Below, piece after piece: positions 8,289 to 63,383 of a stretch of 64,000 nucleotides of DNA (the stretch's first letter is position 1; each line of letters starts with the position of its first letter). The notes below the pieces were generated by a model. The model had not been told where the DNA came from and did no database searches. It saw only the letters and a program-made list of their open reading frames with translations. Source of the DNA: Acidobacteriaceae bacterium (GTDB taxonomy: Bacteria; Acidobacteriota; Terriglobia; Terriglobales; Acidobacteriaceae); the NCBI GenBank assembly GCA_035944135.1, contig DASZBM010000002.1, positions 1,178,001 to 1,242,000 on the forward strand. Direction: 5' to 3'. Made by a program: the position numbers and the translations under genes.

Positions 8289-8322
8289 ACTCTGTCAACA
8301 ATCCACTGACATGCTGACTCGC

Positions 8323-9138
8323 TTATCTCCCGCTCGCGTCGATCGCCTGACGAACCGCCTCCGCCAGCGCGACAACCGACGCCTCAATCGCCTCCGCATG
8401 CGGCGGATACCCCAACCCGCGCAGCGTCTCGCTCGTGATCGGCCCGATCGACACTCGCAGCACTTCCACCGGCAGCTTCACACCCGCCGCTTCGCACAAC
8501 GCCAGCAAATTCCGCACTGTCGACGAGCTCGTAAATGTGATCGCCGCAACCCCCGCCCGCCCCCCAAACAAATCCCGTATCAGCTCAACCGACTCCGCCG
8601 GCACAACCGTCCGGTACGCCGGTGCCACCACCACCTCGGCCCCCGCTGCACGAAGCGCCTCCGGAACCACATCCCGCGCCTCCTCCGCACGCGCCAGCAG
8701 AAACCGCGCCGGCGACCCATCACTCTGCACAGCGTGCGGCACCAGCGCATCCCGAAGCGACTCTGCCACCGCCTGCGCCGGCACCAAATCCACTGCCAGC
8801 CCAATTGCCTCCAGCGCACGCGCAGTCGCTGGCCCAATCGCCGCAATCCGAGGCAACGCTCTCGACGAAAACGCACCCGCCTTCATCCGCCCCCGCATTG
8901 CCTCCACCGCATTCGCGCTCGTGAACACCACCCACTGAAAGCTCTCCAGCCGCGCCAGCGCCTCGTCCAGCACCGCATACGAACTCGGCGGCGCGACCTC
9001 AATCGCCGGCACAACCACCGGCTCCAGCCCCAGCTCCACCAGCTTCGTCGCAAGCTCCGACGATTGCCGCTCGGATCGCGTCACCAGCACCCGCGGATTG
9101 GACTTCGCACCCACGTCGCTGCTTCTTCCAGCCGTCAC
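8323..9138 (-). CDS. hemD: Uroporphyrinogen-III synthase
   Basis: 271 residues from GTG 9138, whose GTGA overlaps the stop of the DUF2252 gene and implies translational coupling; a longer start at 9183 is possible. HemD closes hydroxymethylbilane to uroporphyrinogen III. The family is weakly conserved, but RVLVTRSERQSSELATKLVE at the N-terminus, FTSANAVEAMRGR, AAIGPATARALEAIGL, and FTSSSTVRNLL followed by SIGPITSETLRGLG are the classic HemD signatures. hemC lies about 20 kb away in this window, so the usual hemC-hemD linkage is broken here. Confidence 0.9.
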   Translation of the reverse strand: MTAGRSSDVGAKSNPRVLVTRSERQSSELATKLVELGLEPVVVPAIEVAPPSSYAVLDEALARLESFQWVVFTSANAVEAMRGRMKAGAFSSRALPRIAAIGPATARALEAIGLAVDLVPAQAVAESLRDALVPHAVQSDGSPARFLLARAEEARDVVPEALRAAGAEVVVAPAYRTVVPAESVELIRDLFGGRAGVAAITFTSSSTVRNLLALCEAAGVKLPVEVLRVSIGPITSETLRGLGYPPHAEAIEASVVALAEAVRQAIDASGR

Positions 9139-41827: not shown

Positions 41828-42796
41828 ATGCACTCGCTTCAAGAGTACACTTTGCAAAACTTAGATCTACGGGTGTTGATAAAGCCTGCGGAAGGCGGAC
41901 GGGTGGCGTCGTTGAAGAGCGTTCACACCGGCGTTGAGTTTTTGGCACAGTCTCAGCATTCAACGACTCCCATTCAACCCGGGTGGGACACTAAGTTCCA
42001 GAACGGCGCCTGCGCGGGGATCGAGGAGTGCATTCCTACGATTGGTGCGTGTGGCGAAGGCATGGTAGGCGGGCCCGTTCCTGATCATGGCGATTTCTGG
42101 CAAATAGACTGGACGGTGACAGATCGTTCGCTCACACGACTTCATCTCGAGGCAATGGGCTTCAGTCGTCCTCTGTTCTTCCAGAAGGAAATCTCTCTCC
42201 AGGGCAATAGGCTCAACATCGGGTACCGGGTAACAAACTTGAGCAAATCCGAGGTGCCATTTCTCTATGCATGCCATCCCCTTTTCGCAATCGAAGAGGG
42301 AGATCGAGTCTGCCTGGCGCAAGAGGTTTCATCATTGTCTTTGTACTATTCGCGGGAGAGCCGACTCGGGAGGCAGGGCACTCATGTCTCATGGCCGGTC
42401 ACTTCCCTAGGCGTAAACCTTGAAAGAGTATTGCCCGTTCAAACCGGCTTCGCTGAAATGTTGTATACCGACCGTCTTCATACAGGTCGTTGCGGGCTCT
42501 ATCGAAATGCCGCACAGCAAGGACTTTGTCTTCATTTCGATCCGGCGGTACTTCCCTATCTCGGACTGTGGCTCTGTTACGGTGGCTGGCCTGAGTCGGC
42601 CGTGGGCCCAAAACAATATGCCATTGCATTGGAACCGACCTTCGCACCCGCCAACACGCTCTCAGAGGCTATCGATATGGGATTAGCCGTACGACTGCCG
42701 GCCAACGAAAGTGCCTCATGGAACATCGCCTTCGAAATCAGTTCCCCGAGCCTTCCTTTGTCGCAATTTCGCTCTATGGTGAAGGGCTCAGTCTAG
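41828..42796 (+). CDS. Aldose 1-epimerase-like protein (galactose mutarotase fold)
   Basis: 322 residues from ATG 41828; a longer frame from 41738 begins only 6 nt after the operator. Typical phrases are VLIKPAEGGRVASLKSVHTG, FQNGACAGIEECIPTIGAC, RLNIGYRVTNLSKSEVPFL and ALEPTFAPANTL. It resembles the galactose-mutarotase/aldose-1-epimerase superfamily that equilibrates sugar anomers. A catalytic His-Glu pair is plausible (ACHPLF, IALEPT) but the subgroup is not the canonical GalM. It overlaps the reading frame upstream of the GH36 gene, and the two are one transcription unit under operator 1. Confidence 0.82.
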   Translation: MHSLQEYTLQNLDLRVLIKPAEGGRVASLKSVHTGVEFLAQSQHSTTPIQPGWDTKFQNGACAGIEECIPTIGACGEGMVGGPVPDHGDFWQIDWTVTDRSLTRLHLEAMGFSRPLFFQKEISLQGNRLNIGYRVTNLSKSEVPFLYACHPLFAIEEGDRVCLAQEVSSLSLYYSRESRLGRQGTHVSWPVTSLGVNLERVLPVQTGFAEMLYTDRLHTGRCGLYRNAAQQGLCLHFDPAVLPYLGLWLCYGGWPESAVGPKQYAIALEPTFAPANTLSEAIDMGLAVRLPANESASWNIAFEISSPSLPLSQFRSMVKGSV

Positions 42797-42852
42797 GCGA
42801 GGGTAATCGTGCCTCGATAATAGGCCCCAAGGCCGCAAAGGATGACTACGTA

Positions 42853-45123
42853 ATGAGAAATCTTTCACTGATAGTCGGGCGCTATAATCCCGAATCTCAA
42901 TCGCCCCGCAGAGCATTGGCAGTGAGGATCGCGATCTTCATCGCGCTGTTCCTCGGTTACACGAGCGATGCTCAGTCCCTCAATGCGCTGATCCGATATG
43001 ACGCCGCCTCACAGACCTTTCGAATCGATGCTGCTGAGACCACCTATGTGCTGGGAATAAATGAAAAAAAACAGGTACAGACGATCTATTGGGGGAAACA
43101 CCTCAACCAGACAGATGCGTTTGCTCAGGCTCGATCCATGCGTGGAGGAGGATTTGATTTTTCGGCCTCAAGAACACCCCAGGAGTTTGTAGGCTGGGGC
43201 GGTGGGCTTGCGGTTGAACCCGATCTGAAAATCACATTTCCAGATGGCAATCGCGATCTCGTCCTTCAATATGTGTCGCACCGCATTGAGGGCAGCACGC
43301 TTGAGATCGTGATGAAGGATATCTCGCGCGAAGTCTATGTGACGCTCGTGTACCAGGCGGACTCCGAGACTGGGATAATCCGTCGGTTTGCAACTGTAGA
43401 AAATCGGACGAGACTGCCGTTCACCATCGAACAGGTAGCTGCGGGGACATGGAATCTGCCTAGCGCCGGTGATTATAGAGTGCGCTATCTCGCGGGTCGC
43501 TGGGCGGCGGAGTGGAACGCCGAGGAGCAGCAGTTGCGTCCAGGAAAGCTTGTGCTGGAGAGCCGTAGTGGGTCGACCGGGGCACAGAATAATCCATGGT
43601 TTGCGATCGAGGAGGCAGAAGGCTCAGAGGGCCAATCGAATGATGTGTGGTTCGGCGCATTGGGCTGGAGCGGTTCATGGCAGATTTCTATTGAGCAGGA
43701 TCTCTCGCAGACAGTGCGTATCACTGGCGGCCCCAATGCCTTTGACTTCGGATACCTGCTAGCCAGCGGGAAAACCTTTGAGACATCCTCCTTTTATGGA
43801 GGCTATTCGGACGCTGGAATCGGAGGGGCTTCCCGACTACTGCATCGTTATGAAATAGATTCCATCCTGCCACACCATCCAGCACCGCGGCTTCGGCCGG
43901 TCCTTTACAACTCTTGGGAGGCGACGGGCTTTGATGTCAATGAGGCAGGCCAAATCGCTCTGGCTGAAAAGGCGGCCAGCATAGGTGTTGAACGCTTCGT
44001 TATGGATGACGGCTGGTTCGGCGAGCGTAAGGACGATCATGCTGGCTTGGGCGACTGGTACGTGAACCCGCAGAAGTTTCCGCATGGACTCACGCCTCTG
44101 ATCGACAAGGTGCACTCGCTTGGTATGGACTTTGGACTTTGGGTGGAACCAGAGATGGTCAATCCAGACAGCGACCTTTATCGCAAACATCCGGACTGGG
44201 TTTTGTACTTTCCCGGCAGACCGCACACGGAAGGCCGCAATCAGTTGGTGTTGAACCTCGCACGGCCTGATGTCCGCGCTTACGTGTTTGGCGTGTTGGA
44301 CAAGCTCCTGCGCGACAACGATATTGCCTTTCTCAAATGGGACTACAACCGGTACTGGTCTGAGCCTGGATGGCCATCTGTGCCGCCGGCTCAGCAAAAG
44401 AATGTCTATGTTGATTTTGTCCAGAATTTCTACTCCATTCTTGCTGAAGTGCGGCAGAAGCACCCTAACGTTGAGATCGAATCCTGCTCAGGAGGCGGCA
44501 GTCGCGTGGATCTCGGTGTGATGCAGTACACGGATGAAGTATGGCCCTCGGACAACACTGACGCCTACGATCGCCTCTCGATCCAAGATGGCTTCACCTA
44601 CGCTTATAGTCCGGGCGTGATGATGGCTTGGGTCACAGATTCGCCGACCTGGGTTAACAACCGTATGCTTTCCCTCGAGTATCGTTTCCTTTCGTCGATG
44701 CAGGGAGCACTGGGCATCGGCGCGAACCTGAACAAATGGACCCCGGAGAACTTCGCAAAAGCACGCGAGATGATCGCCTTGTACAAGACCATCCGCGAGA
44801 CGGTTCAGCGGGGCGAACTCTATCGCCTCATTCCTGCCGAACACGACAGCGAGCAATCCGTCACCGAGACAGTATCGCGCGACGGGACGCAGGTCGTTAC
44901 GTTTGCGTTCTTGCATTCAAGTACGGAGCTGTTTCCATTTCCCCGTATCTTCCTTAGAGGACTGGATGAGAACGGGATCTATAGGATCAGCACGCTTGCG
45001 GGTAAAGTGGACAGCAATACCCCGGCAGAGGCGAGCGGAGCCTATTGGATGCACCATGGAATTGACCTCGATCTCCGAAGTGATTTTCAGGCGGCGGCTT
45101 TTGAATTGACCCGGATTCACTGA
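42853..45123 (+). CDS. GH36 alpha-galactosidase
   Basis: 756 residues from ATG 42853, with a basic N-terminal stretch then a hydrophobic segment (VRIAIFIALFLGYTSDAQ) acting as signal peptide or anchor. An N-terminal beta-sandwich (about 45-345) precedes the TIM barrel. VMDDGWFGERKDD, FGLWVEPEMVNPDSDLYRK and LVLNLARPDVR are GH36 hallmarks. The nucleophile is Asp497 in FLKWDYNR, and the acid/base is Asp567 in WPSDNTDA. It hydrolyses terminal alpha-galactosides, here probably in the periplasm. It follows the epimerase-like gene with about 57 bp between. Confidence 0.93.
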   Translation: MRNLSLIVGRYNPESQSPRRALAVRIAIFIALFLGYTSDAQSLNALIRYDAASQTFRIDAAETTYVLGINEKKQVQTIYWGKHLNQTDAFAQARSMRGGGFDFSASRTPQEFVGWGGGLAVEPDLKITFPDGNRDLVLQYVSHRIEGSTLEIVMKDISREVYVTLVYQADSETGIIRRFATVENRTRLPFTIEQVAAGTWNLPSAGDYRVRYLAGRWAAEWNAEEQQLRPGKLVLESRSGSTGAQNNPWFAIEEAEGSEGQSNDVWFGALGWSGSWQISIEQDLSQTVRITGGPNAFDFGYLLASGKTFETSSFYGGYSDAGIGGASRLLHRYEIDSILPHHPAPRLRPVLYNSWEATGFDVNEAGQIALAEKAASIGVERFVMDDGWFGERKDDHAGLGDWYVNPQKFPHGLTPLIDKVHSLGMDFGLWVEPEMVNPDSDLYRKHPDWVLYFPGRPHTEGRNQLVLNLARPDVRAYVFGVLDKLLRDNDIAFLKWDYNRYWSEPGWPSVPPAQQKNVYVDFVQNFYSILAEVRQKHPNVEIESCSGGGSRVDLGVMQYTDEVWPSDNTDAYDRLSIQDGFTYAYSPGVMMAWVTDSPTWVNNRMLSLEYRFLSSMQGALGIGANLNKWTPENFAKAREMIALYKTIRETVQRGELYRLIPAEHDSEQSVTETVSRDGTQVVTFAFLHSSTELFPFPRIFLRGLDENGIYRISTLAGKVDSNTPAEASGAYWMHHGIDLDLRSDFQAAAFELTRIH

Positions 45124-45214: not shown

Positions 45215-45257
45215 TTGACATTGCAAGCTGTCAGGTCATAAAAGCGTGTACGTACAC
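45215..45257 (+). promoter_or_regulatory. Promoter and LacI-type operator 2
   Basis: TTGACA (45215-45220), then about 16-17 nt, then CATAAA/ATAAAA near 45238. The perfect 12-bp palindrome GTGTACGTACAC is at 45246-45257, just downstream of the -10, so a bound repressor would block the start. It lies 36 bp before the phosphatase-like gene. Confidence 0.8.
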
Positions 45258-45292: not shown

Positions 45293-46447
45293 GTGGCTTC
45301 GCATAAATTGGCCCCACACGAAATCGGAAAACAGCTCTCATACGGCCGGCGCGAGTTTCTGCGCAGTTCCGCAGGTCTGGCATTAGGGAGCACGCTCTTA
45401 CGGTCACCGTTTGCTCGTGCAGCGACCGCCAGGGACAGGAAGGTAGTAGTCGTCACGTTCGGCGGCGGCGCGCGAGATCAAGAGACTTTCGCTCCCGAAG
45501 GTCAGGAAAACATTCCGCATATGATGGGGGATCTGATTCCGCGCGCCACATTCTTCACCCAGGTCGTAAATCGCGGAATTCTTGGCCATTACGTGGCGAC
45601 CGCCAGCCTCGTAACCGGGGCATATGAGACGTTCAATAATTTCTCTGCGATCCCTCCCGATAACCCGACAGTCTTCGAGTATTACCGCAAAGGTTTGAAG
45701 CGCCCGTCATCTGATGCGTGGGTTGTAGCTCCGAGCAACGGGTTCAATTGCATCGGAGAGAGCCGTCATCGCTCGTATGGAGAAGGCATGGGCGCCAGGG
45801 TGATTCTTCCGAAGTATCTATTGAAAACTGCGATGTCGGGCGGTGCCGCCGATTACGAACACCTGCTGCGCGACAATTACGAGAATCCCTATTTCACGCC
45901 GGACATCGAGAGCAGGGAGTTCGAACTCGATCAGATGGAGACGATCCTGAAGCTTTCTGCGAGTGACTTCAGGGAGCACGCGAAAACACTTTCGAGCCCC
46001 GATGAGCTTTCACTGTTTATCGTGCGCCGGCTGATTCAGCAGGTGGCTCCGAGCTTTCTCTGGATCACAATGCACGATATCGATATCGCACACGCCGGTG
46101 CGTATTCGCTGTATCTCGAAGGCATCCGGCGGACGGACAGACTGTGTGGGGAGTTGTGGCAACTGCTCGAGAGCGAGCCCGAATACGCAGGCAAGACGAC
46201 TCTTCTCGTGCTTCCGGATTTTGGAAGGGATGCGGACGAAGATGCGGGAGGGAATGGCTTCCAGCACCACCGCACTGGCGATGCTGTCGCGCGTACTACG
46301 TGGCTTATGGCCCTTGGCTCAGGCGTTCGGGAAGGTGTCGTTTGCGATCGGGCGGTGGAATCCATCGACCTGGTGCCAACACTGGGAGCCATGCTGGGTT
46401 TCTCACCTATATATGCGAAGGGTAAGCCTATTCAGGAGCTGTTGTAA
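45293..46447 (+). CDS. Tat-exported alkaline-phosphatase-superfamily protein
   Basis: 384 residues from GTG 45293 with GAGAGG upstream; GTG 45278 is an alternative. A Tat signal (GRREFLRSSAGLALGS) exports it. The core follows the alkaline phosphatase/sulfatase/phosphoglycerate-mutase fold: VVVVTFGGGARDQETF, GHYVATASLVTGAYE (nucleophile-loop position), WITMHDIDIAHAGAYS with metal Asp/His, LLVLPDFGRDADED and FQHHRTGD with metal His. It lacks a sulfatase C-x-P-x-R signature. Substrate unknown. The next gene starts 1 nt after its stop. Operator 2 links it to the galactoside locus. Confidence 0.8.
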   Translation: MASHKLAPHEIGKQLSYGRREFLRSSAGLALGSTLLRSPFARAATARDRKVVVVTFGGGARDQETFAPEGQENIPHMMGDLIPRATFFTQVVNRGILGHYVATASLVTGAYETFNNFSAIPPDNPTVFEYYRKGLKRPSSDAWVVAPSNGFNCIGESRHRSYGEGMGARVILPKYLLKTAMSGGAADYEHLLRDNYENPYFTPDIESREFELDQMETILKLSASDFREHAKTLSSPDELSLFIVRRLIQQVAPSFLWITMHDIDIAHAGAYSLYLEGIRRTDRLCGELWQLLESEPEYAGKTTLLVLPDFGRDADEDAGGNGFQHHRTGDAVARTTWLMALGSGVREGVVCDRAVESIDLVPTLGAMLGFSPIYAKGKPIQELL

Positions 46448-47656
46448 TTGCTGCCGCGCGACCTAGGTTCGGTCGATTTTAGAAGCTATCCGCCCCAAGC
46501 GAGACAGCTGGCGATCGAGAATATATCAATCTTGCGGCGGTTGCCACTCGGTCTGCTATCGAGCTTGCTTGCAGAGTTGATCGAATACGATTTCAAATTC
46601 CCTGCTGAGCGAACACGGTTATCGAGGGAGCTGGCGAGCCTGGGCGCACTCACTGATGCGCAGCTTAGTGAGCTACTAAAAGGGTTCTTCAAAATATCGC
46701 TCACCTCACAGCTCGAAAATCTGAATTGGGTGAACTCGCCGGCGCAGTTTGTGGAACAGCTTTCGGCGCATCTGTGGAGGACCGGGCAGCAGGATGCTTT
46801 CAGCATCGCCGCCGTAAAGTACGATGATCATCTCACCGCGACGACGGCCGCACAGGCTCCTCCCATTCCACGACTTGGCATCGTCATCATCGGCCGGGGC
46901 GTCGCGTCGTACGATGGACAGCTGTTCCGCAGGCTGCGTCCTTACGCTACTTATTTCAGCCGCGTAAGACCGGAAAATGGGTTGCGGCTGTTACTCGATG
47001 CAATCGCATCAAGAGCGGAAGCGCACCCAGCTGCATACGCGCATTGGTACATTGATGGCGGTGAGCCAGAGAACCACGATTCGAGGCTCACCGCAATTTC
47101 GTGGGCGGCCCTCGCTCCGGTGCGCACCGCACTCCTGGGCCACATTCATTCAGAGATAGAACGTCCCGGCATGGGGCCCGAAAAGCTTCGCAGTATCATG
47201 GCGCGAACAACGCCGTCGGAACTCGGCATGAAAACAGCGGCCGGGGATGAAGTGCTGCAGCGATTCCAACTCAGACTGCTGACTGAGGGCTCCGGAACCC
47301 AGCTCTTCAGCACTAGCTTCGCACAGTGGGGGGCTCGCGAGGCGCTTCGACGGGCTCAGCCGATAACGCTGCTAGTTCGGTTTGCGCCGCGCCAGCGGCT
47401 GAAGCCAATGAATGAGTTACTCTCTGCGCAATCTGGGGCGCCAGAGACAGACCCGTTGGGATCGCTGATTGATGCCGACATGGCTGCCTGGTACACCTGG
47501 CTGGATCAGCAGCGCCTGCCTGGCGCAGACCGGAGTTGCTTTCTCGTCTGGTTTGAAGCCCAGAGGTTGGCGCTGGCCATCAGTCCCCAACTGCCGCGCG
47601 GAACGGAGTCATCGTCAGAGGTAGGCCTCGAAAAATTGCTAGCGTGGATGACCTGA
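46448..47656 (+). CDS. Unrecognised 402-residue cytoplasmic protein
   Basis: Start is TTG 46448, directly after the TAA of the phosphatase-like gene and 8 nt after GGAG. No signal peptide or membrane segment. The N-terminal 110 residues are helical (LLSSLLAELIEYDFKFPAERT, LLKGFFKISLTSQLENLNW). The middle has a Rossmann-like strand LGIVIIGRGVASYDGQLFRRL and an AHWYIDGGEP block, the C-terminal half alternates strand and helix. I recognise no family. Coupled translation with the exported enzyme suggests a shared role, perhaps maturation of that enzyme or turnover of its product. Confidence 0.75.
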   Translation: MLPRDLGSVDFRSYPPQARQLAIENISILRRLPLGLLSSLLAELIEYDFKFPAERTRLSRELASLGALTDAQLSELLKGFFKISLTSQLENLNWVNSPAQFVEQLSAHLWRTGQQDAFSIAAVKYDDHLTATTAAQAPPIPRLGIVIIGRGVASYDGQLFRRLRPYATYFSRVRPENGLRLLLDAIASRAEAHPAAYAHWYIDGGEPENHDSRLTAISWAALAPVRTALLGHIHSEIERPGMGPEKLRSIMARTTPSELGMKTAAGDEVLQRFQLRLLTEGSGTQLFSTSFAQWGAREALRRAQPITLLVRFAPRQRLKPMNELLSAQSGAPETDPLGSLIDADMAAWYTWLDQQRLPGADRSCFLVWFEAQRLALAISPQLPRGTESSSEVGLEKLLAWMT

Positions 47657-47752: not shown

Positions 47753-47805
47753 TTGACAGATCAATTCGCAGAAGTATATGAAGAGTCGTCACCGTGAACG
47801 TTCAC
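47753..47805 (+). promoter_or_regulatory. Promoter and LacI-type operator 3
   Basis: TTGACA (47753-47758), 16 nt, TATATG (47775-47780), then GTGAACGTTCAC (47794-47805), which is a perfect 12-bp palindrome (14 bp counting the flanking C and G). The operator sits at the expected transcription start of the GH30 gene. Confidence 0.85.
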
Positions 47806-47840: not shown

Positions 47841-50123
47841 ATGCACTGGAAAAGCAGACACTACCAACGATTCACGGGGTTGATTGTTGCAATCGCTACA
47901 GCCTTCTGCATGCCTCCATTGTTAGCTCAGACCGTGAACGTTGACGTATCCATGTCGAACCAAACGCTTGAAGGCTGGGGCACTTCCCTGGCCTGGTTCG
48001 CCAACGGTGTCGGCGGCTGGACGAACACTACCAACCAGACGGGCCTCATGGACGCGCTTTTCAATCCCACCTCGGGTTTGGGCCTCACTTACCTCCGCTA
48101 CAACATCGGCGGAGGCGACAATCCGAACTGCGGCCAATCGGGGTACTACGCCTGCATTAGCTCCCCGCAGAATGCGGTTCCGGGCTACCAGCCGGCGCCA
48201 GGAACCTACAACTGGAACGCGGACGCGAACCAGCGGTGGGTAGCGCAGACAGCCCAATCAATGGGAGCCAATCTCTTCGAAGCTATCTCCTACTCCCCAC
48301 CCTACTGGATGACCAACAGCGGCACCAGCCAGGGCGGTGCTAGCGGCGCCGAGAATCTGGCCAGCGGATATTACGGCTCCGGCTCAGGCACCTTCGCCGA
48401 TTACCTGACGACGGTGGCGCAGCACTACGCCGAAAATTGGAGCATCACGTTTCATCATCTGGAGCCATTGAACGAGTCCGGGCAGAACTGGTGGGTCGCC
48501 GGCGACGCGAAGCAAGAGGGTTGCGCGTTCAGCCTGGCCGATCAACAGACCACGATCCAGAATGTGCAAGCATCGCTGACGGCAAAGGGGCTGACCACGC
48601 AGGTCTCCGCTATGGACGAGTACCAGGAGGGCGTGCTCAATTCCACCGCCGCCACGACTGCCTACGAGTTCCACAACTACAACTCGACTACGGTTGGCGA
48701 TTTTACGGCGCTCAATACTCACGGCTACTCATCAACTCTGGGCAGCGTGGCGGTGGCGACATCGGCTCAACACGCGGGCAAGCGCGTGACGGTGTCGGAG
48801 TGGGGAAGCAACGACAGCACCGGACAAGACCTGTCCAATCAAATTCTCGCGGACATCTATTTGACACGTCCTGTGGCATGGTCGATTTGGCAGCCGGATT
48901 GGCCGGAACTGATGTCGATCAACTATACCGGCCAATCCTACACATTGAACGAAGGGTATTACGTCTACGAAAATTACACCAAGTTCATCCGGCCGGGATT
49001 CCAATTCATCGCCATCTCCGATCCGCAGTCGCTGGCCGCATACAACGCGCGCACTCAGACGCTGGTAATAGTCACGCAGAACTGGACGTCGAGCAGCCGC
49101 AGCGTTACCTATCAGCTCAACAACTTCACTTCATTGGGCTCGGCGGCCGCAGTCTATCAAACTTCATCAAGCGAGCAATTCGCCTCGCTCGGAAACGTCA
49201 GTGTGGTAAGCGGCACCTTCAGCGACTCGGTGCCTTCCCAATCCGTGACGACTTTCATTATCTCGAACGCGGTATATCAGCCTGCGGCGACGACGGTGAA
49301 CGACAACACCACGGGGACCGGATTGAACCAGTTCAACTACGTTGGCAGCTGGAGTTACTATGCCGGCCAAACTGGCGCCTACGATAACGACAATCACTGG
49401 AGCAGCACCACAAACAATTACTACACGTTCGAGTTCAGCGGCCAGCAGGCGCGTGTGTATGCGTCTCTGGCGCCGAACAGCGGCATCGCGGCAATCTCGG
49501 TGGATAACGGCGCGGAGACCTACTTCGATACCTACGCTGCGACTCGCGTGGACAACGTGTTTCTGTTTGCTACACCGACGCTCGGCAATGGCACACACAC
49601 TTTGAAAGTTCGCGTGAGCGGCCTTAAGAACTCCGCTTCCGGCGGGTACAACGTGTCCGCAGATCGCATAGACGTGGTCGGCTCCGGTTCCGAAGTCGGC
49701 CAGGACATCTACAAAATCGTCAACGTCAAGAGCGGGCTCGATCTGGAAGTAAACTCGGCCAGCTTGGCGGACGGCGGCACAGTTGACACTTACAAGGATG
49801 TTTCCGGCGCCAACAACGAGCACTGGAACCTGATGGCGGTTGGAGATGGATCCTACCGAATCGTAAACGTAAACAGCGGGCTCGACCTCGAAGTGCATGG
49901 CGCCAGCAAATCAAATGGTGGGACAGTTGATCAGTGGCAGGACAGCGGTTCCAGCGTGACCAATGAGCATTGGACGCTGGTTCCGGTTTCCGGAGGATAC
50001 CGGATCGTCAATCTCAACAGCGGGCTCGACCTGGAAGTGAATGGAACGTCAGGGGTAGTTGACCAATGGCAGGACATCGCGGGCGCGTCGAATGAGCACT
50101 GGACACTGACCCTTACAAATTAA
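47841..50123 (+). CDS. GH30 glycosidase, probable endo-beta-1,6-galactanase, with ricin-type repeats
   Basis: 760 residues with a signal peptide ending near PPLLAQ. The GH30 barrel opens with LEGWGTSLAWFANGVGG and GLTYLRYNIGGGDNP, phrases typical of the endo-beta-1,6-galactanase subfamily (GH30_5). The acid/base is Glu212 in LEPLNESGQNWW and the nucleophile Glu320 in TVSEWGSND. A C-terminal beta domain of the barrel comes next. About 490-605 is a beta module (YVGSWSYYAGQTGAYDNDNH), followed by three ricin-type repeats of about 45 residues, each beginning YKIVNVKSGLDLEV or close to it. It should cut beta-1,6-galactan, as in plant arabinogalactan. Confidence 0.9.
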   Translation: MHWKSRHYQRFTGLIVAIATAFCMPPLLAQTVNVDVSMSNQTLEGWGTSLAWFANGVGGWTNTTNQTGLMDALFNPTSGLGLTYLRYNIGGGDNPNCGQSGYYACISSPQNAVPGYQPAPGTYNWNADANQRWVAQTAQSMGANLFEAISYSPPYWMTNSGTSQGGASGAENLASGYYGSGSGTFADYLTTVAQHYAENWSITFHHLEPLNESGQNWWVAGDAKQEGCAFSLADQQTTIQNVQASLTAKGLTTQVSAMDEYQEGVLNSTAATTAYEFHNYNSTTVGDFTALNTHGYSSTLGSVAVATSAQHAGKRVTVSEWGSNDSTGQDLSNQILADIYLTRPVAWSIWQPDWPELMSINYTGQSYTLNEGYYVYENYTKFIRPGFQFIAISDPQSLAAYNARTQTLVIVTQNWTSSSRSVTYQLNNFTSLGSAAAVYQTSSSEQFASLGNVSVVSGTFSDSVPSQSVTTFIISNAVYQPAATTVNDNTTGTGLNQFNYVGSWSYYAGQTGAYDNDNHWSSTTNNYYTFEFSGQQARVYASLAPNSGIAAISVDNGAETYFDTYAATRVDNVFLFATPTLGNGTHTLKVRVSGLKNSASGGYNVSADRIDVVGSGSEVGQDIYKIVNVKSGLDLEVNSASLADGGTVDTYKDVSGANNEHWNLMAVGDGSYRIVNVNSGLDLEVHGASKSNGGTVDQWQDSGSSVTNEHWTLVPVSGGYRIVNLNSGLDLEVNGTSGVVDQWQDIAGASNEHWTLTLTN

Positions 50124-50182
50124 AGCAGCAAGCAAAAGCCCCAGCTCACCGGATCTTGGTGGGAGGGCCCAATCAAAAAAAC

Positions 50183-50194
50183 GTGTACGTTACC
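50183..50194 (+). promoter_or_regulatory. LacI-type operator 4
   Basis: GTGTACGTTACC, identical to operators 1 and 5, lies 30 bp before the TonB-receptor start and 60 bp after the GH30 stop. A TACACT (50195-50200) follows. I see no matching -35, so it may act on a weak promoter or on read-through. Confidence 0.75.
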
Positions 50195-50224
50195 TACACT
50201 GCATTACTGAAAAGGAGTTTGAAA

Positions 50225-53200
50225 ATGAGGCCACACGCAAATTCGATCGCCGCAAGTTGGTTGTTCTTTCTTGCGCTCGCGCTGCTCTGCATCGGCTTGC
50301 CCACGGCTGCGCGTGCCCAGGTTGACGCCGGCGCGGTGCGCGGCACCGTTAGCGACGCTAGCAAAGCTGTCATTCCCGGAGCGAAAGTTACTCTCGTCAA
50401 TGTTGGCACCGGTCTGACGACCTCAGTGGTCACCGCTAAGGACGGTGCCTACACCTTCAGCCCCGTAAAAGTCGGGTCATATAAGGTCACAGCGGAGTTT
50501 TCCGGCTTTCGCACTGACGTCCTGCACGTTACTGTCAACGTCCAGGACCAGGTTCGCGCTGATTTCACTCTCGTTCCCGGAGAGGTGACGCAGCAGGTGC
50601 AAGTGACATCAGTAGCGCCTCAACTGCAAACACAGGATGCGTCGGTGGGCGCAACAGCCACGCACGAGCAGATCGAAAATCTCCCCCTCAACGGGCGCAA
50701 CTACACCTTCCTTGCCCAGTTGAACGCGGGAGTCACCAGCCTCAACCCGACCCGCGGTCTTGATCAGACCGGAAGCTTTGTGGCCAACGGCCTTACGTCG
50801 GTTCACAACAACTACATCCTTGACGGTATCGACAACAATAACGACACAGTCGACTTCCTTAACGGGGCAGCGTACGTGAATTTGCCGCCTCCTGATGCAA
50901 TTCAGGAGTTCAAGCTGCAGACCAGCAACTTCAGTGCAGAGTTCGGCAGGGCCGGCGGCGCTGTCGTCAACGCCTCCGTCAAGTCCGGTACGAACCAGTT
51001 CCACGGCTCGCTTTGGGAGTTCTTGCGCAACAACGACTTGGACGCGCATCCGTTGAGCGAATACTTCAACTCCGCCAGCAATCGGCCCGTGGTCCCTTAC
51101 AAATGGAACCAGTTTGGCGGGTCGGCCGGCCTCCCCATTCTGAAGAACAAACTCTTTATCTTTGGCGACTATGAAGGCATGAGGATCCGCCAGGGAGACC
51201 AGACCTCAGCGACTGTGCCGACCCCAGCTGAAGTAACGAGCAAATACACCAACTTCAGCGACCTCTTTCAGTCGACTTCGGCAACCGCGACCGATGCTCT
51301 GGGCCGCATCATGAACGTTGAAACTATTCTTGATCCGGCAACGACGCGCCAGGTTACGCAGGGGCAGGTGGATCCGGTTTCGGGGCTGGTTGCCGCGCAA
51401 ACCGGCTACGTGCGTGACCCTTTTTATACCGGGGGTAGCATCGCGGGAATTACGAACTTTACAACGTTGAGTTCTCAGTTGAACCAAATGCCCGCGAACC
51501 GTCTCGACCCGAACGCTATTAAGCTGCTGCAGCTTTATCCGGCGGCCAATCAAACCACCGGCGCCAATGAATTCACCAGCAACTACGCGGTTAACCAGCC
51601 CGAGCCCGATAACCGCCAGCACTTCGACGTGCGCGTGGATTACAACCTCGGCAGCAGAGACCAGATGTTCGTGCGCGAGAGCTACGGCCGCAGAATCGCG
51701 AACATTCCATCTTCGATCAATGGTCTCGGAGCCAACCCAGGCTTCGGTTCAGGTGTCTTTCAGGATTTGTCGAACAACCTTGCAGCGAGTGAGACGCACG
51801 AATTTTCAGCAACGCTGATAAATGAGGCCCGCTTCGGCTACAGCCATCTGTATACCTCGGCGGAGCCTCCAGTTGCGAGTCAAAGCGGAATTCCGACGCA
51901 GTTCGGCATTCAGGGAATTCCTCAAGGTCCTGGAAATGGCGGTCTCCCGAACATCAACGTCGGCGGTTTGACCTCTTTGGGCCCAGGCGGCTACGCGAGC
52001 CCGAACGACCGAACCAGCAATACCATTCAGTTCACAGAAAACCTGACGAAAATATGGAGCGGGCACAGTCTGAAAGTGGGCATGGAATACCAGCGACTGA
52101 GCTTCCCCTGGGTATGCCCACCGTATTCGCGCGGTTACTTCGCGTTTTCCGGTTATTCCGGCATCCCTAATGTGACCAACGGCGTCGGGGCGGCGGACTT
52201 GATGCTGACACCTATCCCATCAACCGTCACGAATAGCTCCACGGGCGTTAAGGGCGTGGACTATGTTGGGGGACCAAACAATACTCAGGTCTCTACGATC
52301 GATGCACCGAATGATCTTCGCAGCTATTACGGAGCGTATGTTCAGGATGATTGGAAAGCTACGCGGAAACTCACCGTCAATCTCGGCCTTCGTTGGGAGG
52401 CGTTTTTGGCCATTTCAGAAGCGAGCGGTTCGCAGGCCGGCCTGATTCCGTCGGCGGATCAGACGACCGCCACGTACAACATCCTCTCGCAACAGAAGAG
52501 CGTTCAGCTGTCCAACTCCTTCCTCTCGCTGCTGGCCAAAGACAATATCCCCCTGAAATATGTTGGAGGATCGAGCATCCTGGCAGGCCAAAAGGCAAAC
52601 TTTGCGCCGCGAATCGGTATGGCTTATCAGTTCACGCCGAAGCTCGTCGCCCGGGCAAGTTACGGCGTGTTTTACGGAGGATTTGAAAACATCGGCGGCT
52701 CCCCTGACCCGGCCGAGAACTACCCCTTCTACGTTTATCTCAGCATATCGAGGCCAGACGCCTCACACCCCATGATCTATGGAGACGGAAACAGGGCAAC
52801 GCTCGAAGACGGTCTGAACGATGCTGAACCCGATCCCAACAATCCAGCTTTCAATGCCGAATACCTCGGCCCGATTGCATATCAGCAGAATCCGAAGACT
52901 CCTTATACCCAGGAATGGAATGCGTCGGTGCAGTATCAACTCAGAGCCAACGAGGCGGTGACTGTTGCCTACGTCGGCAATAACAGCCAGCACATGCTCA
53001 ATGGCGCGTATACCAACCAGCCAACAGAGATCCTGCCGCCGGGAACCAATCCACAGAATTACATTCAGTTCCCGGATCTTTCGCGCAGCCTCAATTACAT
53101 GGTTAACAACGGCTCCTCTTACTATCACAACTTCGAAGTAACCTACGAGCGCAGGTACAGCAATGGAGTGCAATTCCTGGCGAACTATACGCGCTCAGTC

Positions 53201-53887
53201 TGCAAGACCGACAATCGCAACATCCTGAACATAGGCGAGGGAGCGGCTGCCCGCGCCTATGAGTTGCCCGGCTGGGGTCCGGAAAAGGACTACACCTATT
53301 GCGGAGACGATGTTCCTAACATCTTCCACGCCAGCGGCATCTATGCCCTTCCGTTCGGAAAGGGCCAGCATTTCGCTTCAAATGCATCCACGCCGGTAGA
53401 TGCCGTGATCGGAGGCTGGAGCGTGCAGGGAATTTATACCCTTCAGGATGGATTCCCATTCTCGATCGGTTGCCCGGTGAGCACCACCGCCGACTACGGA
53501 TGCTATGCCAACCTGGTTGCGGGACAGAACATCTACAGCCACACAAGCAATTCTTTAGGAACGCAGTTCCTGAATCCGGCAGCTTTCGCCAATCCGCCTG
53601 TGGCCACGAGTATCGGCCAGTCCGATACATCGCCACTCGGCGGCACCGGGATGCAGGCGCACGGCCCGGATTATGACGACATTGACCTGTCGTTATTCAA
53701 ACAATTCCAGACCACAGAGCGTACGCATCTGGAATTCCGTGCGGAGGCTTTCAACGCTCTCAATCACCCGAACTTCGCGGCAGGTTTCCGCTCGCTTGAC
53801 TTCAGAAATACACAATACTTTGGAGTCATCGATGCAATCCGCGGAAATTCTCGCGAACTGCAGTTGGCATTGAAGTTCCACTGGTAG
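50225..53887 (+). CDS. TonB-dependent receptor, Oar-like, with N-terminal carboxypeptidase-regulatory domain
   Basis: 1220 residues from ATG 50225 after AAGGAG, with a signal peptide ending near AARAQ. A carboxypeptidase-regulatory domain follows: GAVRGTVSDASKAVIPGAKVTL and DGAYTFSPVKVGSYKV. A plug domain shows LPLNGRNYTFLAQLNAGV and ILDGIDNNNDTVDF. A long outer-membrane beta barrel makes the rest, ending in the aromatic LALKFHW typical of outer-membrane barrels. Such receptors without a SusD partner are the main polysaccharide-fragment importers in Acidobacteriota. Placement between GH30 and the TPR gene suggests galacto-oligosaccharide import. Confidence 0.92.
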   Translation: MRPHANSIAASWLFFLALALLCIGLPTAARAQVDAGAVRGTVSDASKAVIPGAKVTLVNVGTGLTTSVVTAKDGAYTFSPVKVGSYKVTAEFSGFRTDVLHVTVNVQDQVRADFTLVPGEVTQQVQVTSVAPQLQTQDASVGATATHEQIENLPLNGRNYTFLAQLNAGVTSLNPTRGLDQTGSFVANGLTSVHNNYILDGIDNNNDTVDFLNGAAYVNLPPPDAIQEFKLQTSNFSAEFGRAGGAVVNASVKSGTNQFHGSLWEFLRNNDLDAHPLSEYFNSASNRPVVPYKWNQFGGSAGLPILKNKLFIFGDYEGMRIRQGDQTSATVPTPAEVTSKYTNFSDLFQSTSATATDALGRIMNVETILDPATTRQVTQGQVDPVSGLVAAQTGYVRDPFYTGGSIAGITNFTTLSSQLNQMPANRLDPNAIKLLQLYPAANQTTGANEFTSNYAVNQPEPDNRQHFDVRVDYNLGSRDQMFVRESYGRRIANIPSSINGLGANPGFGSGVFQDLSNNLAASETHEFSATLINEARFGYSHLYTSAEPPVASQSGIPTQFGIQGIPQGPGNGGLPNINVGGLTSLGPGGYASPNDRTSNTIQFTENLTKIWSGHSLKVGMEYQRLSFPWVCPPYSRGYFAFSGYSGIPNVTNGVGAADLMLTPIPSTVTNSSTGVKGVDYVGGPNNTQVSTIDAPNDLRSYYGAYVQDDWKATRKLTVNLGLRWEAFLAISEASGSQAGLIPSADQTTATYNILSQQKSVQLSNSFLSLLAKDNIPLKYVGGSSILAGQKANFAPRIGMAYQFTPKLVARASYGVFYGGFENIGGSPDPAENYPFYVYLSISRPDASHPMIYGDGNRATLEDGLNDAEPDPNNPAFNAEYLGPIAYQQNPKTPYTQEWNASVQYQLRANEAVTVAYVGNNSQHMLNGAYTNQPTEILPPGTNPQNYIQFPDLSRSLNYMVNNGSSYYHNFEVTYERRYSNGVQFLANYTRSVCKTDNRNILNIGEGAAARAYELPGWGPEKDYTYCGDDVPNIFHASGIYALPFGKGQHFASNASTPVDAVIGGWSVQGIYTLQDGFPFSIGCPVSTTADYGCYANLVAGQNIYSHTSNSLGTQFLNPAAFANPPVATSIGQSDTSPLGGTGMQAHGPDYDDIDLSLFKQFQTTERTHLEFRAEAFNALNHPNFAAGFRSLDFRNTQYFGVIDAIRGNSRELQLALKFHW

Positions 53888-53966: not shown

Positions 53967-55163
53967 GTGACGGCCAGTCTGCCGCGACCGATTACTGATC
54001 TATTCTTCAAGTGCATGGCAAGGTTAAGTCGTAATCTAGTCCCGGCGCTTCTGGTTATGCTTCTGTCCGCAGCCCTACCGACGGATCGACTGACATATGC
54101 GCAAGCACCGCCAGCCAAACGTAGCCTGTGTCAAAATCCCGCCACCGGGTTAACCGGACACTTCGGCGTGCAGCAAAGCATGGCCTTCGCGGAGCAGTAC
54201 CTCAATCTCGGCCGTACGAGTGAAGCGATTCCCTGCCTAGAGAATGCCTACTCGGCCGATCGCGAGGATCCGAAGATAGCCTATGAGCTTTCCGTCGCAT
54301 ACCTTGCAACGCGAAACAGCGGAGCAGCCCGTGAGGTTGTCGAAGACCAGCTAAAAATTCAGGAGAGCGCGACATTTCATAGTCTGCTAGGGACGATCGA
54401 CGCGCAGCAAGGTCAATTTCGGGAAGCAACGGCACAATTTCAGCAGGCCACACGGGAGGACCCGAGCGAACGAAACACATTTGATTTTGGGACCTCCTTG
54501 CTCCGGTTTCAGGGGAACTCCGCAGAACAAATATTTCGTTACGGCATCTCGCGTTTTCCTGATTCGGTTCGCATGCATATGGGCCTCGGATATTCGCTAT
54601 GGATTCAAGGCCACACCATCGAAGCAGTGCAGGAAATGTGCGCAGCGGAGCAAATGGATCCTGACGATCCGCGCCCGATGGAGATGCTGGGCGATATCGA
54701 GCAAATCCCATCTTCCGTGGCAGAGCGCGTCACAGCGCAGCTGGCTGGGCTGGTCAAACAGCATCCGGACAACGGACAACTGCTTTTCTATTATGCGATG
54801 GCGCTGTCCGGCGTATGGTCCGGGCAGGATTCGTCTCATCTGAATGCTGTCCTCCCCATGATCGAGCACGCTCTCGCTCTCAACCCGAAGCTTGTGAAAG
54901 CGTATTTTTATCTCGCAGAGAACGAAGAACAAAAGGGCGAAAAGCAGAAAGCATTGCAAAACTATCAGCGAGCTGCAGAGCTAAACCCTAACGACGAACG
55001 CATTGCTTACCGTTTGGCTTTTGCCTACAAACAGGCGGGTGACGATGCGATGTTTCGGAAGCAGTTGCAGAAATTCAGGGCGCTCCATGAAAAGGCCGCC
55101 GACAACGCAAGTGCGGCTGCGGTTGAAGAACTAAACGCCGGGAATTCAGCAAAGGAGCCATAA
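53967..55163 (+). CDS. TPR-repeat exported protein
   Basis: 398 residues from GTG 53967 with AAGG upstream. A signal or anchor segment lies at LVPALLVMLLSAALPTDRL. The rest is made of tetratricopeptide-like helices: MAFAEQYLNLGRTSEAIPCL, AYELSVAYLATRNSGAAREV, FHSLLGTIDAQQGQFREATA, VKAYFYLAENEEQKGEKQKA and RIAYRLAFAYKQAGDDAMF. TPR proteins act as scaffolds. It is between the TonB-receptor terminator and the operator 5 promoter, so it may be transcribed from its own weak promoter. The partner is unknown. Confidence 0.85.
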   Translation: MTASLPRPITDLFFKCMARLSRNLVPALLVMLLSAALPTDRLTYAQAPPAKRSLCQNPATGLTGHFGVQQSMAFAEQYLNLGRTSEAIPCLENAYSADREDPKIAYELSVAYLATRNSGAAREVVEDQLKIQESATFHSLLGTIDAQQGQFREATAQFQQATREDPSERNTFDFGTSLLRFQGNSAEQIFRYGISRFPDSVRMHMGLGYSLWIQGHTIEAVQEMCAAEQMDPDDPRPMEMLGDIEQIPSSVAERVTAQLAGLVKQHPDNGQLLFYYAMALSGVWSGQDSSHLNAVLPMIEHALALNPKLVKAYFYLAENEEQKGEKQKALQNYQRAAELNPNDERIAYRLAFAYKQAGDDAMFRKQLQKFRALHEKAADNASAAAVEELNAGNSAKEP

Positions 55164-55475
55164 CACCAATTGCACTACCAGGACACGCTTCGCGCGCTTC
55201 GTCTGAAACCCATGCCGGACCTCGACCTCGAATGAATGCCCACAACGATGCGAGTTTCCAGCCGGAGACTGTGCGGTCCTAGAGTTTCTCCCCCGCGCGA
55301 ATATAATCGGGCCGCCATTCTGACGATCTCAAATGGCCAACCAGGCAACGTTTGTTGACAATCGTTTATGCTACCGTGTACGTTACCGACACCTGCCGTT
55401 TCCCGCATTCATGTTCAGTTCGGGCTCGGCATTTGTGCGGCGGCAGACTAACGTTGAGTGCGGGGTGCGAATCCG
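55164..55475. other. Intergenic regulatory region upstream of the DUF5107 operon
   Basis: This stretch of about 310 bp has no credible gene. It contains the operator 5 promoter at 55355-55387. The part 55175-55340 shows no clear structure. Confidence 0.7.
55355..55387 (+). promoter_or_regulatory. Promoter and LacI-type operator 5
   Basis: TTGACA (55355-55360), 18 nt, TACGTT (55379-55384), with GTGTACGTTACC (55376-55387) covering the -10. It has the same architecture as operator 1 (TTGACA-N18-TACGTT). It should drive the DUF5107-MFS-GH59-LacI operon. Confidence 0.85.
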
Positions 55476-58400
55476 GTGAATGTTGCGAACAAGTGCGAAG
55501 CCGTGAGCTGCTACGAACGGGAGATCATACTTCCGACGTATCCTGTGCAGGATGCCGATCCTAACCCCATGTTCCTCGAGAAACGTGTCTACCAGGGAAG
55601 CAGCGGCAAGGTCTACCCGAACCCGTTCACTGATCGCGTCGCCCTGACGAGAGAGGATAGATCCTATCGCGCGATATTCCTCGAAAACGAGTTCGTTCGG
55701 CTAATGATCCTACCGGAGATCGGCGGGAGAATTCACGCGGCCACCGACAAGACGAATCAGTACGATTTCTTTTATCGCCAGCAGGTGATCAAGCCCGCGT
55801 TAGTCGGCCTGCTCGGGCCGTGGATCTCAGGGGGGGTAGAGTTCAATTGGCCGCAGCATCACCGTCCCTCCACCTACATGCCCGTCCATGCCGCGATTGA
55901 ACACAATGATGAAGGCGGCTGTACGGTGTGGCTCAGCGAGCATGACCCCATGTTGCGCATGAAGGGGATGGTTGGCATCCATCTTGCGCCTGGTAAGTCG
56001 ATCATTGAGGCACGTGTGAGGCTCTTCAATCGCACGCCGCTGCCGCAAACTTTTCTATGGTGGGCCAATGTCGCGGTGCGGGTGCACGATCAGTACCAGA
56101 GCTTTTTCCCGCCCGACGTGAGCTTCGTCGCGGATCACGCCAAACGTGCCATCTCTTCGTTCCCGATCGCGCGGAACTTCTACTACGGAGTTGATTACCG
56201 CCCGGGCACCGACATTTCGTGGTACAAGAACATCCCCGTACCCACTTCATACATGGTGACGGAGTCGAAGTACGATTTCTTCGGCGGTTACGATCACGCG
56301 CAACGTGCCGGTGTGGTGCACACCTCAAACCACCGTATAGCGCCTGGCAAAAAACAGTGGACGTGGGGCAACGCCGAGTTTGGCTACGCCTGGGATCGCA
56401 ACCTGACAGATGAAGATGGTCCTTACGTAGAGTTAATGGCCGGCGCTTACACCGACAACCAGCCCGACTTCTCCTGGCTTCAACCGTACGAGACCAAGAC
56501 CTTCAGCCAGTACTGGTATCCGATCCAGGAGATCGGACCGGCAAAAAATGCCAATACCGAGGCCGCGCTGAATCTCGAATTTCGCGACGGCCGAATCTTG
56601 GCGGGCGTCTGCGTAACCTCCTTACGCACTATTCGAGTGCTGCTTGCACGCGATGGAGTTGCCCTCTTTGACGAAACCGTCGAAGCCGCTCCGGGCAGAC
56701 CTTTCACCAGGACTATTGAATTCGCCACAGAGGATCCGACCCACTTCCGCCTTGCCATTCTTGCGGAAGACGGCTGCGAACTGCTTGCCTGGCAACCGGA
56801 GTCATTGCCAGAACGTGAGCTTCCAGCGCCCGCTACCGAACCTCCATTGCCAGCGGAAATCGACAGCACGGAGGAACTCTACCTTACCGGCCTGCATCTG
56901 GAGCAGTACCGGCACGCGACGCGCTCGCCCGAGGCGTATTGGAGCGAGGGCCTGCGCCGCGATCCCGATGACGCGCGCCTGAACAATGCCATGGGCCTCG
57001 CGCTGTTGCGCAACGGCCTCTTCACCGAAGCCGAGCAGCACTTCGCGCGGGCGGTTCGCCGCCTGACCTTCCGCAACCCCAATCCTTACGACGGGGAGCC
57101 GTTTTATAACCTCGGCCTGGCGTGTCTCTATCAGGGCAAGGACGCAGATGCCTACACCGCTTTTCATAAGGCCGTATGGAATTACGCATGGCAGAGCGCG
57201 GGCTACTTCTGGCTTGCCAGCCTCAGCCTCAAGCGCGGTGAGCTTGCTCTCGCTCTTGAGCAGATAGAGCGGAGCCTCTCGACAAACACGCCAAACCTAA
57301 GCGCGCGAGCATTGAAGGCAAGCGTATTGCGCCGCATAGGGCGCGCGCAGGCGACTCGAGAGATCATAGACAAAACTCTGGCTCTCGATCCTCTCTTCTT
57401 CCGCATGGTCGCCGAGCGTTTTCTGCTCAGCCGCGATCCTGCGGATCTGGAAGCATTCTTTCAATCACTTGAAGGCGATGTGCAGACGCTGCTCGACGTG
57501 GTTTACGAACTCGCTTGGGCGGGTCTGCACGAAGATGCGTTCACGCTACTCAAGGCCGCCGCCGATACGGTTCACTTCAAACATCCGATGATCGGCTACA
57601 CGCTCGCGTGGCTCGTTTCACAGCTAGGCCGCGCGACAGAGGCAAAGCCATTCATCGACTGGGCCGAAGCCGCATCGCCGCTCTACTGCTTCCCTGCGCG
57701 TCTCGAAGAGATGCTCGTGCTGGAGGATACCATCGTGCGGCGCCCTGAATCCGCTCGCGCACACTGCTACCTCGGCAACCTCTACTACGACAAACGCCGC
57801 TACCAAGGCGCAATTCATTGCTGGCGCCGGTCCGTAGAGCTCGATGCCTCCTACTCCGTTCCATGGCGCAATCTCGGCCTCGCCGAGTTCAACGTCCTCC
57901 ACGATCCCGTTGCAGCGGACCGCATGTATGAACGCGCCTTTGCCGCCAATCCGCGCGATGCGCGCCTTTTGTATGAATGGGACCAACTGAAGAAACGGGA
58001 CGGCCTCGCCTCGCCGGATGATCGTCTTCGCATACTGGAGCAGCACAACGAGCTCGTCAATCATCGCGACGATCTCACGGTCGAACTCATTACGCTGCTT
58101 AATCAGACCGGACGTTTCGCGGAAGCGCTCCGCCGCCTCGAGTCGCGACGTTTCAGCCCTTGGGAGGGCGGTGAAGGCCTCGTCTCAGCGCAGTTCGTCT
58201 TCGCGCACAAGGCTCTCGGCCATGCCGCTCTCGTCACAGATGACGCCGCTAAAGCGCTGAAGCACTTCGAGGCTGCCCGCGACTATCCGGAAAATCTCGG
58301 CGAGGGCAAGCACCTGCTCACCTTGGAGCGCGATCTGGATATTCTCTGCGGTCTCGCTGCCGAACAACTGGGCGATGGCGCCGACGCGCAGAGGTATTGG

Positions 58401-62262: not shown

Positions 62263-62297
62263 TGGCTTACTAAACTCATTGGAAGAAACGTGTGCCC

Positions 62298-63383
62298 ATG
62301 AAGAAGGAAGAGAACCAGACTGCCGCGGGCATCAAGGAGATTGCCAAACTTCTGGGAATCTCAATCGGGACAGTCGACCGCGCGTTGCACGCACGGCCGG
62401 GAATCAGCCCGAAGACTCGCGCCAAAGTACTCAAGAAGGCCGAAGAGCTCAATTACAGACCCAACGTCGCAGCCCGAAGCCTGAAGCTGAATCGCCGTCT
62501 TCGCATCGCTGTTCATCTTCCACATCAGATCACCTCCTTTTTTGATCCGCTCCGCGATGGCATTCGGTCAGCTGCGGCCGCGAGCGCCGGCGTCGCCGTG
62601 GATTTGGACTTTCGCACCTATCCCTATATCGGCAAGGGCGACGTCGAATCGTTGGAAGCCGACATTGGCGGCGGCTTTGACGGCATAATTCTGACTCCAG
62701 GGGATCCGGCGAAATTCGATCCGCTGATCAGGCGCATTACTGCGCAGGGCATCCCGGTCGTCTGCGTGGCCAGCGATGCTCCCCGGAGCGGCCGCCTGGC
62801 ATCAGTGACGGTGGACGCAGGAATCAGCGGGGCAATTGCTGCCGAGCTGTTTTCGCGAACGCTGAAGAAGCCGGGAACGGTTGCGACCATCACAGGCGAT
62901 CTGAACACGCTCGATCACGCTGAGAAGCTGAAGGGATTTGCGGCTGCACTGGCGACCATGGCACCTCATCTTTCGCTCCGCCCTGCGATCGAGAGTCACG
63001 ATCGTCCGAAAGACGCTGCTCGCGCGACGGTCGCGCTTATAAATCACAAGCCCCGTCCTGCGGGAATCTACATCAGCACCGCGAATAGCCTGCCGGTCCT
63101 TAGCGCGCTGGAAGAGCGGAATGTACTCGATCAGATTCACGTGATCGCCACCGACCTCTTTCCAGAGCTGCTTAGTTTTTTGGAACATGGGAAGATCCTG
63201 GCTACGCTCTACCAACGGCCTTTCACTCAAGGCAAAGTCGCCTTCGAAGCGCTGATCCGCTACTTGCGAGATGGGGTCGCGCCCGACCCGGCGACGCGCT
63301 TAGCACCGCATATCATTTTACGTAGCAATCTGCCTCTGTTTGCTGATCGCCTTGCGCAGGAAGGGACTGAGAACGATAGCTGA
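62298..63383 (+). CDS. LacI-family transcriptional regulator
   Basis: 361 residues from ATG 62298; GTG 62292 is closer to the GGAAGA site and equally possible. The DNA-binding helix-turn-helix is GIKEIAKLLGISIGTVDRAL then HARPGISPKTRAKVL, followed by the hinge ELNYRPNVAARSLKLNRR. The TVDRAL form marks a subgroup with periplasmic-binding-like sensor domains of sugar type. The sensor shows GFDGIILTPGDPAKFDPLI and VCVASDAPRSGRLASVTVDA. It is the last gene of the operon under operator 5 and the best candidate for the protein that binds all five operators, including its own promoter. Confidence 0.93.
   Translation: MKKEENQTAAGIKEIAKLLGISIGTVDRALHARPGISPKTRAKVLKKAEELNYRPNVAARSLKLNRRLRIAVHLPHQITSFFDPLRDGIRSAAAASAGVAVDLDFRTYPYIGKGDVESLEADIGGGFDGIILTPGDPAKFDPLIRRITAQGIPVVCVASDAPRSGRLASVTVDAGISGAIAAELFSRTLKKPGTVATITGDLNTLDHAEKLKGFAAALATMAPHLSLRPAIESHDRPKDAARATVALINHKPRPAGIYISTANSLPVLSALEERNVLDQIHVIATDLFPELLSFLEHGKILATLYQRPFTQGKVAFEALIRYLRDGVAPDPATRLAPHIILRSNLPLFADRLAQEGTENDS

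Follow-up and report, generated by a model that had tools for sequence, protein, structure and literature searches.

A conserved gene pair in Acidobacteria encodes a Tat-motif protein and a predicted degenerate alkaline-phosphatase-fold partner and is often linked to TonB-dependent receptors

Comparison of genomes and gene neighborhoods shows that two adjacent genes, here called A and B, are a real, stable conserved unit in soil Acidobacteria, and that this pair often belongs to a cassette with a TonB-dependent receptor (TBDR) and a TPR protein. Protein A is a divergent, distant relative of DUF1501 within the alkaline-phosphatase (AP) superfamily, and B, a new family as far as its sequence can be judged against Pfam, NCBIfam and PHROGs, appears from structure modeling to share the fold of its neighbor over residues 138-402. 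With rather less than even confidence, we propose that A and B together form an extracytoplasmic complex in the service of the TBDR uptake cassette, with B being exported by hitchhiking through Tat. The initial annotation of this DNA had pointed to the pair as a candidate for an undescribed component, and the literature searched, in the portions available, describes neither the A-B pair nor its receptor linkage; the accessible part of PMC3174227 likewise contains nothing bearing on the pair.

Genomic setting of the A-B pair

The gene order in the window (the whole 64-kb stretch of DNA that was analyzed) is GH36, A, B, GH30, receptor, TPR, DUF5107, MFS, GH59, LacI, and the features that matter here are as follows.

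42718..45123, + strand: GH36 alpha-galactosidase, directly upstream of A
45246..45257, no strand assigned: operator-like palindrome GTGTACGTACAC, upstream of A (pattern scan)
45293..46447, + strand: gene A, DUF1501-like, AP superfamily, with a Tat motif (profile match, low-confidence model)
46448..47656, + strand: gene B, 402 aa, with a predicted helical N-terminal part (about residues 1-135) and a predicted degenerate AP-fold domain (138-402; model)
47794..47805, no strand assigned: palindrome GTGAACGTTCAC, of the same kind as GTGTACGTACAC, upstream of the GH30 gene (pattern scan)
47841..50123, + strand: GH30-type glycosidase carrying a ricin-type lectin domain; its gene separates A-B from the receptor
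50156..53887, + strand: TBDR (OMP_b-brl_4, CarboxypepD_reg), grouping in a tree with A-B-linked receptors of other genomes
53967..55163, + strand: TPR protein; in the loci read, the relatives that score best against it are found between receptor and pair
62292..63383, + strand: LacI-family regulator, candidate for the window operators

Both open reading frames lie where the initial annotation had placed them and adjoin without a spacer, as it had described: the stop codon of A is TAA at 46445-46447 and the start codon of B is TTG at 46448. All 28 members compared have a start codon at the aligned start of B (ATG in 23, TTG in four, GTG in one). The reading frame of A is open from GTG 45278, with an alternative start at GTG 45293, a few bases upstream of which an AGAGG can be seen by eye.

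Two other genes of the window can be mentioned in their own right. The GH59-type protein (60244-62262), which belongs to the galactocerebrosidase family in Pfam, is found here within a bacterial galactoside locus, and a DUF5107 and TPR protein of 1115 aa (55458-58805) lies close to the receptor and TPR genes and has a relative that is also near A-B in another locus (L087).

Conservation of the pair

The initial annotation had made genome-wide co-occurrence of the two genes a check on its proposal, and the two genes do co-occur: among 300 genomes of the bacterial family of the window, searched with cut-offs of E 1e-10 for B and 1e-30 for A, B is present in 126 and A in 122, with both in 121, B alone in five and A alone in one. 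The five genomes with B alone are G532, in which A is present and cut by the contig end, G187, in which a receptor fragment is followed directly by the C-terminal part of B (L098, about 8300-9900), as a deletion would leave, and G343, G517 and G555. Across 297 genomes of the phylum, searched at E 0.001, B occurs in 23 and A in 75, the latter count including distant AP kin; a profile search of 386 genomes recovered B in 29, of which 26 are from the family of the window.

Gene order is conserved along with presence. Among the matches listed, A lies directly upstream of B on the same strand, with a median spacing of 4 nt, at 141 of the 150 B places; the other nine include one reversed pair and one place in G343, and the rest look, by their coordinates, like contig ends or broken genes. 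Nine of the 150 A places among the matches listed have no listed B downstream, which, given that the listing covers 150 places for each gene, does not amount to nine loci lacking B. The pair is kept even in the reversed instance, L124 (G356), where the order is TBDR-TPR-B-A.

Two unusual arrangements came to light in the same survey. L187 (G501:C13:8000-22000) has two dissimilar A-B pairs in facing orientation: the first, preceded by a receptor and a TPR gene, is of the window type, and the second is closer to the distant type of G163. At L093 (G019), a distant A-B pair adjoins a gene with DUF1585/1587/1588/1592/1595 domains, which are the usual partners of other AP-like Tat proteins.

Protein A, a distant relative of DUF1501

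The window A protein has no match in Pfam or NCBIfam at E up to 10 or in PHROGs at E up to 0.1, and fails the Pfam gathering score for DUF1501 (PF07394). Its kinship becomes visible at the level of the family: weak Pfam matches among 28 members are to DUF1501 in 15 (best E 1.9e-4), Metalloenzyme in 11, TAT_signal in 10 and Phosphodiest in eight, and in hhalign the 28-member profile aligns with a DUF1501 profile, composed of 16 proteins from the same bacterial family as the window, over 336 columns (prob 95.3, E 2.1e-8). Moreover, the best chains in a sequence-profile search of the PDB with A are sulfatases (top E 0.0019), and the matches listed for the structure model of A belong to the AP superfamily; this model is poor (pLDDT just 51.7), and with that quality it aligns with PafA in VIA-align at Z 12.4 (rmsd 4.5, 233 aligned).

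Besides the profile alignment, A resembles DUF1501 in the Tat motif and in a [DE]FGR motif, the Phe of which is present in 25/28 A members and 16/16 DUF1501 proteins. It differs in that the window A has no Pfam match at E 10 and in that B does not match the Pfam model of DUF1800, the conserved partner with which DUF1501 genes occur in two-gene operons of unknown function, according to the accessible part of PMC5122149. The twin-arginine motif of the window A reads GRREFL and is accompanied by an AxA site identified by eye; the corresponding pattern (RR-x-hydrophobic pair within the first 110 residues) recurs in 27/28 members, the exception being L094, in keeping with the initial annotation, which had one of the two proteins exported through Tat.

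Seven residues (H99, D262, H267, D282, D313, D315 and H326) are invariant in 28/28 A members and could bind metal. At the canonical Asp-His metal pair, as placed by the PDB sequence-profile alignment, A has Asp/Glu followed by Phe (25/28), Met, Leu or Cys, and never His. A search of A for the Ser/Thr/Cys nucleophile of the AP superfamily gave no confident position, and neither a sulfatase cysteine motif nor a cofactor motif was seen in A. Of the earlier label "phosphatase-fold enzyme," the fold is retained on the low-confidence model, and the word "enzyme" is to be read as putative, the Asp-His pair reading Asp-Phe as in DUF1501.

Protein B, a sequence orphan with a predicted AP fold

Protein B has no match in Pfam or NCBIfam at E up to 10 and none in PHROGs at E up to 0.1. 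PDB sequences and plasmid records gave nothing useful, with no plasmid record matching B at E 0.001, and a comparison of B with DUF1501 likewise yielded nothing. The A and B profiles do not match each other significantly (prob 3.9, E 0.011), the short match between them aligning both first strands.

The structure model of B, derived from 13 sequences, has a pLDDT of 82.5 and a pTM of 0.77. A Foldseek search of the PDB with this model gave no match at E 0.001; its first seven matches are all to the AP superfamily (E 3.4e-3 to 3.6e-2, TM-scores around 0.3). In VIA-align, residues 138-402 align with chains of the AP superfamily, at best with Z 13.0 (rmsd 5.3, 211 aligned) for one chain and 12.9 (rmsd 3.8, 216 aligned) for another. 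Against 996 chains, Z is at least 8 for 217 and between 5 and 8 for one; the 50 entries listed of the 996 belong, to judge by their names, to the AP superfamily. The statement in the initial annotation that the 402-residue protein has no recognizable family holds for its sequence, and the profile and structure-model searches that it had suggested qualify the statement for the main domain, which the model predicts to have the AP fold of the partner.

Like the sulfatases, NPP, iPGM and PafA, which represent the AP superfamily in this comparison, A and residues 138-402 of B have the predicted AP fold; unlike these, A has no His in the Asp-His pair, and conserved His ligands are missing from B. 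Not one His is shared by all 28 B members (the best reaches 89%), and the ligand position at the end of the first strand, as placed by sequence position rather than by superposed coordinates, is occupied by Gly in 25/28. Since B lacks a twin-arginine motif (absent from 28/28 members), a clear signal peptide and any invariant His, it is probably a pseudoenzyme, that is, a degenerate protein of the modeled AP fold that has lost the usual metal ligands.

Several simple predictors bear on the localization of B, which to the initial annotation looked cytoplasmic. A crude rule for Sec-type signals flags 1/28 B members (L085, with the window B not flagged) and 0/28 A members, and because it finds none of the 28 A signals, this rule is blind to signals of the Tat type. 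A composition classifier for localization (cross-validated AUC 0.897) scores above 0.5 for 10/28 B members and for just 19/28 A members, with scores of 0.18 and 0.20 for the window A and B, respectively. The median cysteine content of B is 0.25%, compared with 0.97% for cytoplasmic-like and 0.41% for exported proteins of the genome, and leans weakly to export, the argument being a weak one because A, with its Tat motif, stands at 0.74%.

Linkage to a TonB-dependent receptor

We read 59 loci with A, the window included, most of them picked for a match to B. One contig is present twice (L012 and L133), and L005 and G441:C151 are probably also the same contig. The 59 include L096, which has A without B, and L141, where the gene caller missed B and the genome search for B placed it; L098 (the B remnant in G187), L099 (G134, a weak match), L011 (no A called, contig end) and L184-L187 lie outside the 59. 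Genes at these loci were named by Pfam for one representative each and by phmmer matches above 60 bits for the rest.

In 37/59 loci a TBDR gene of the same strand precedes the pair at a distance of one or two genes, or, in one of these 37 (L081, where the TPR gene is split), of three; the order TBDR-TPR-pair is seen in 32/59. In 22/59 loci there is no receptor just upstream, in some of them for reason of contig ends. A divergent FG-GAP/ASPIC-UnbV gene is found within two genes of the receptor in 21/59 loci, and a LacI gene in six. At L073 (3-3158) and similar loci, the FG-GAP/ASPIC-UnbV protein divergent from the receptor has a redoxin domain and, by eye, a twin-arginine start.

A quick tree was built from 50 receptors, every one of them from these loci; in it the window TBDR groups, on a long branch, with 28 of the 36 A-B-linked receptors (support 99), although the GH30 gene separates it from the pair. 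The remaining eight linked receptors share a branch with six unlinked ones, and the linked set is not one clade.

At least one labeled glycoside hydrolase type is present in 25 of the 58 other loci, and GH36 in seven. These counts, and the frequent presence of the pair in a TBDR/TPR cassette, call for a revision of the earlier view that it has no obvious place in galactoside breakdown. In its setting the pair represents a variation on uptake loci already known: as in Sus-like polysaccharide utilization loci, a TBDR, glycoside hydrolases and a sugar regulator are combined in one locus, whereas the position expected for SusD is taken by a TPR protein and A-B, and no SusD domain was found among the 11 window proteins scanned.

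Operator-like sites

The initial annotation had assigned to the pair a promoter of its own with a perfect operator. The palindrome is indeed there, at 45246-45257, and the pattern GTGNACGTNCAC, which was drawn from the same two sites that it counts, occurs in the 64 kb at two sites only, before A and before GH30 (expected 0.04; 0/100 shuffles with two). Looser palindrome scans of the window are not striking, their counts being reached in 4/100 and 6/100 shuffles, and perfect palindromes of 12 bases alone are expected by arithmetic about 16 times per 64 kb. It is plausible that the LacI protein encoded at 62292 acts on the palindromes at 45246 and 47794. The separate promoter was not borne out: a consensus scan found no forward site upstream of A, where just a TTGACA box near 45215 can be picked out by eye.

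A LacI-type site, TGTAANCGNTTACA, with at most one mismatch lies upstream of 17/34 linked receptors (control 0.000), and with at most two mismatches upstream of 19/34 (control 0.009), the other 15/34 having three or more; the 34 upstream regions include near-copies, and the pattern came from sites already seen. This site is absent from the window, the palindrome of which differs in sequence.

Functional implications

Given that B is without an evident signal, it would pair with A inside the cell and be carried out via Tat. In the mechanism that we envisage, A would bring the twin-arginine signal, and B would fold and pair with it in the cytoplasm and then leave with it through Tat as a hitchhiker. 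Once in the periplasm, A and B together would bind or process whatever ligand the partner receptor imports, probably a glycan, or a glycan with a phosphate or sulfate group. B would contribute as a non-catalytic, structural or ligand-binding subunit, and the cassette would be switched by sugar-responsive repressors of the LacI type. According to the available portions of PMC10924467 and PMC4273604, hydrogenase, formate dehydrogenase and PaoABC are established examples of Tat hitchhiking, in which, as in A-B, one partner has a twin-arginine signal and the other has none; unlike A-B, for which we infer co-export, the cases named there are redox enzymes.

One point counted against an export complex is that DUF1501 proteins carry Tat signals anyway. 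B might instead be a cytoplasmic partner, namely a dedicated REMP-like chaperone or quality-control protein that keeps hold of A until Tat export and itself remains inside. The lack of a twin-arginine motif in 28/28 B members, the position of the gene right after A, and the helical part preceding the AP-like domain would all fit such a role. Chaperones of the REMP type, however, serve enzymes loaded with a cofactor (redox enzymes), while A shows no cofactor motif, and the low cysteine content of B leans, weakly, the other way; we consider a chaperone role unlikely, if worth keeping in view. Still less probable, in our estimate, is that B is a cytoplasmic protein with a task of its own in sugar metabolism or regulation that merely shares the operon of A, as the several sugar genes at the locus and the LacI-type sites before half of the linked receptors might suggest. 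Against such independence stands a tie that is to A specifically, as seen at 141 of the 150 listed B places, and that holds in the reversed order of G356 and in loci with no receptor just upstream.

We give similarly little credence to A being a conventional secreted phosphatase or sulfatase that acts on decorated galactans, with B as a minor accessory. The predicted AP fold of A, the seven invariant Asp/His residues that could bind metal, and the glycoside hydrolases nearby in part of the loci are compatible with this explanation, but the Phe in place of the metal-binding His (25/28, never His) and the lack of a visible sulfatase cysteine motif speak against it, as does the fact that B is kept as strictly as A. 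A co-exported A-B complex is the most economical and preferred explanation, if a tentative one. Its strongest form, which we hold to be doubtful, is that A and B are an obligate AP-fold heteromer with one degenerate member, exported by Tat hitchhiking, and that this heteromer is the dedicated ligand-handling partner of one group of TBDRs of Acidobacteria, a role corresponding to that of SusD in Bacteroidota.

Soils harbor many Acidobacteria, and these bacteria have large numbers of TBDRs, the periplasmic partners of which are largely an open question. A gene pair that is present in about four of every ten genomes of one family, often beside one receptor group and LacI-type sites, provides a concrete handle on this question, being deletable, localizable and purifiable. 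Furthermore, B, an orphan by sequence, appears by its predicted fold to fall in the superfamily of its neighbor, which would leave one unknown fewer. We know of no Tat hitchhiker outside redox enzymes; if the proposed complex is real, A-B would be such a case and would, moreover, exemplify a pseudoenzyme role for the AP fold.
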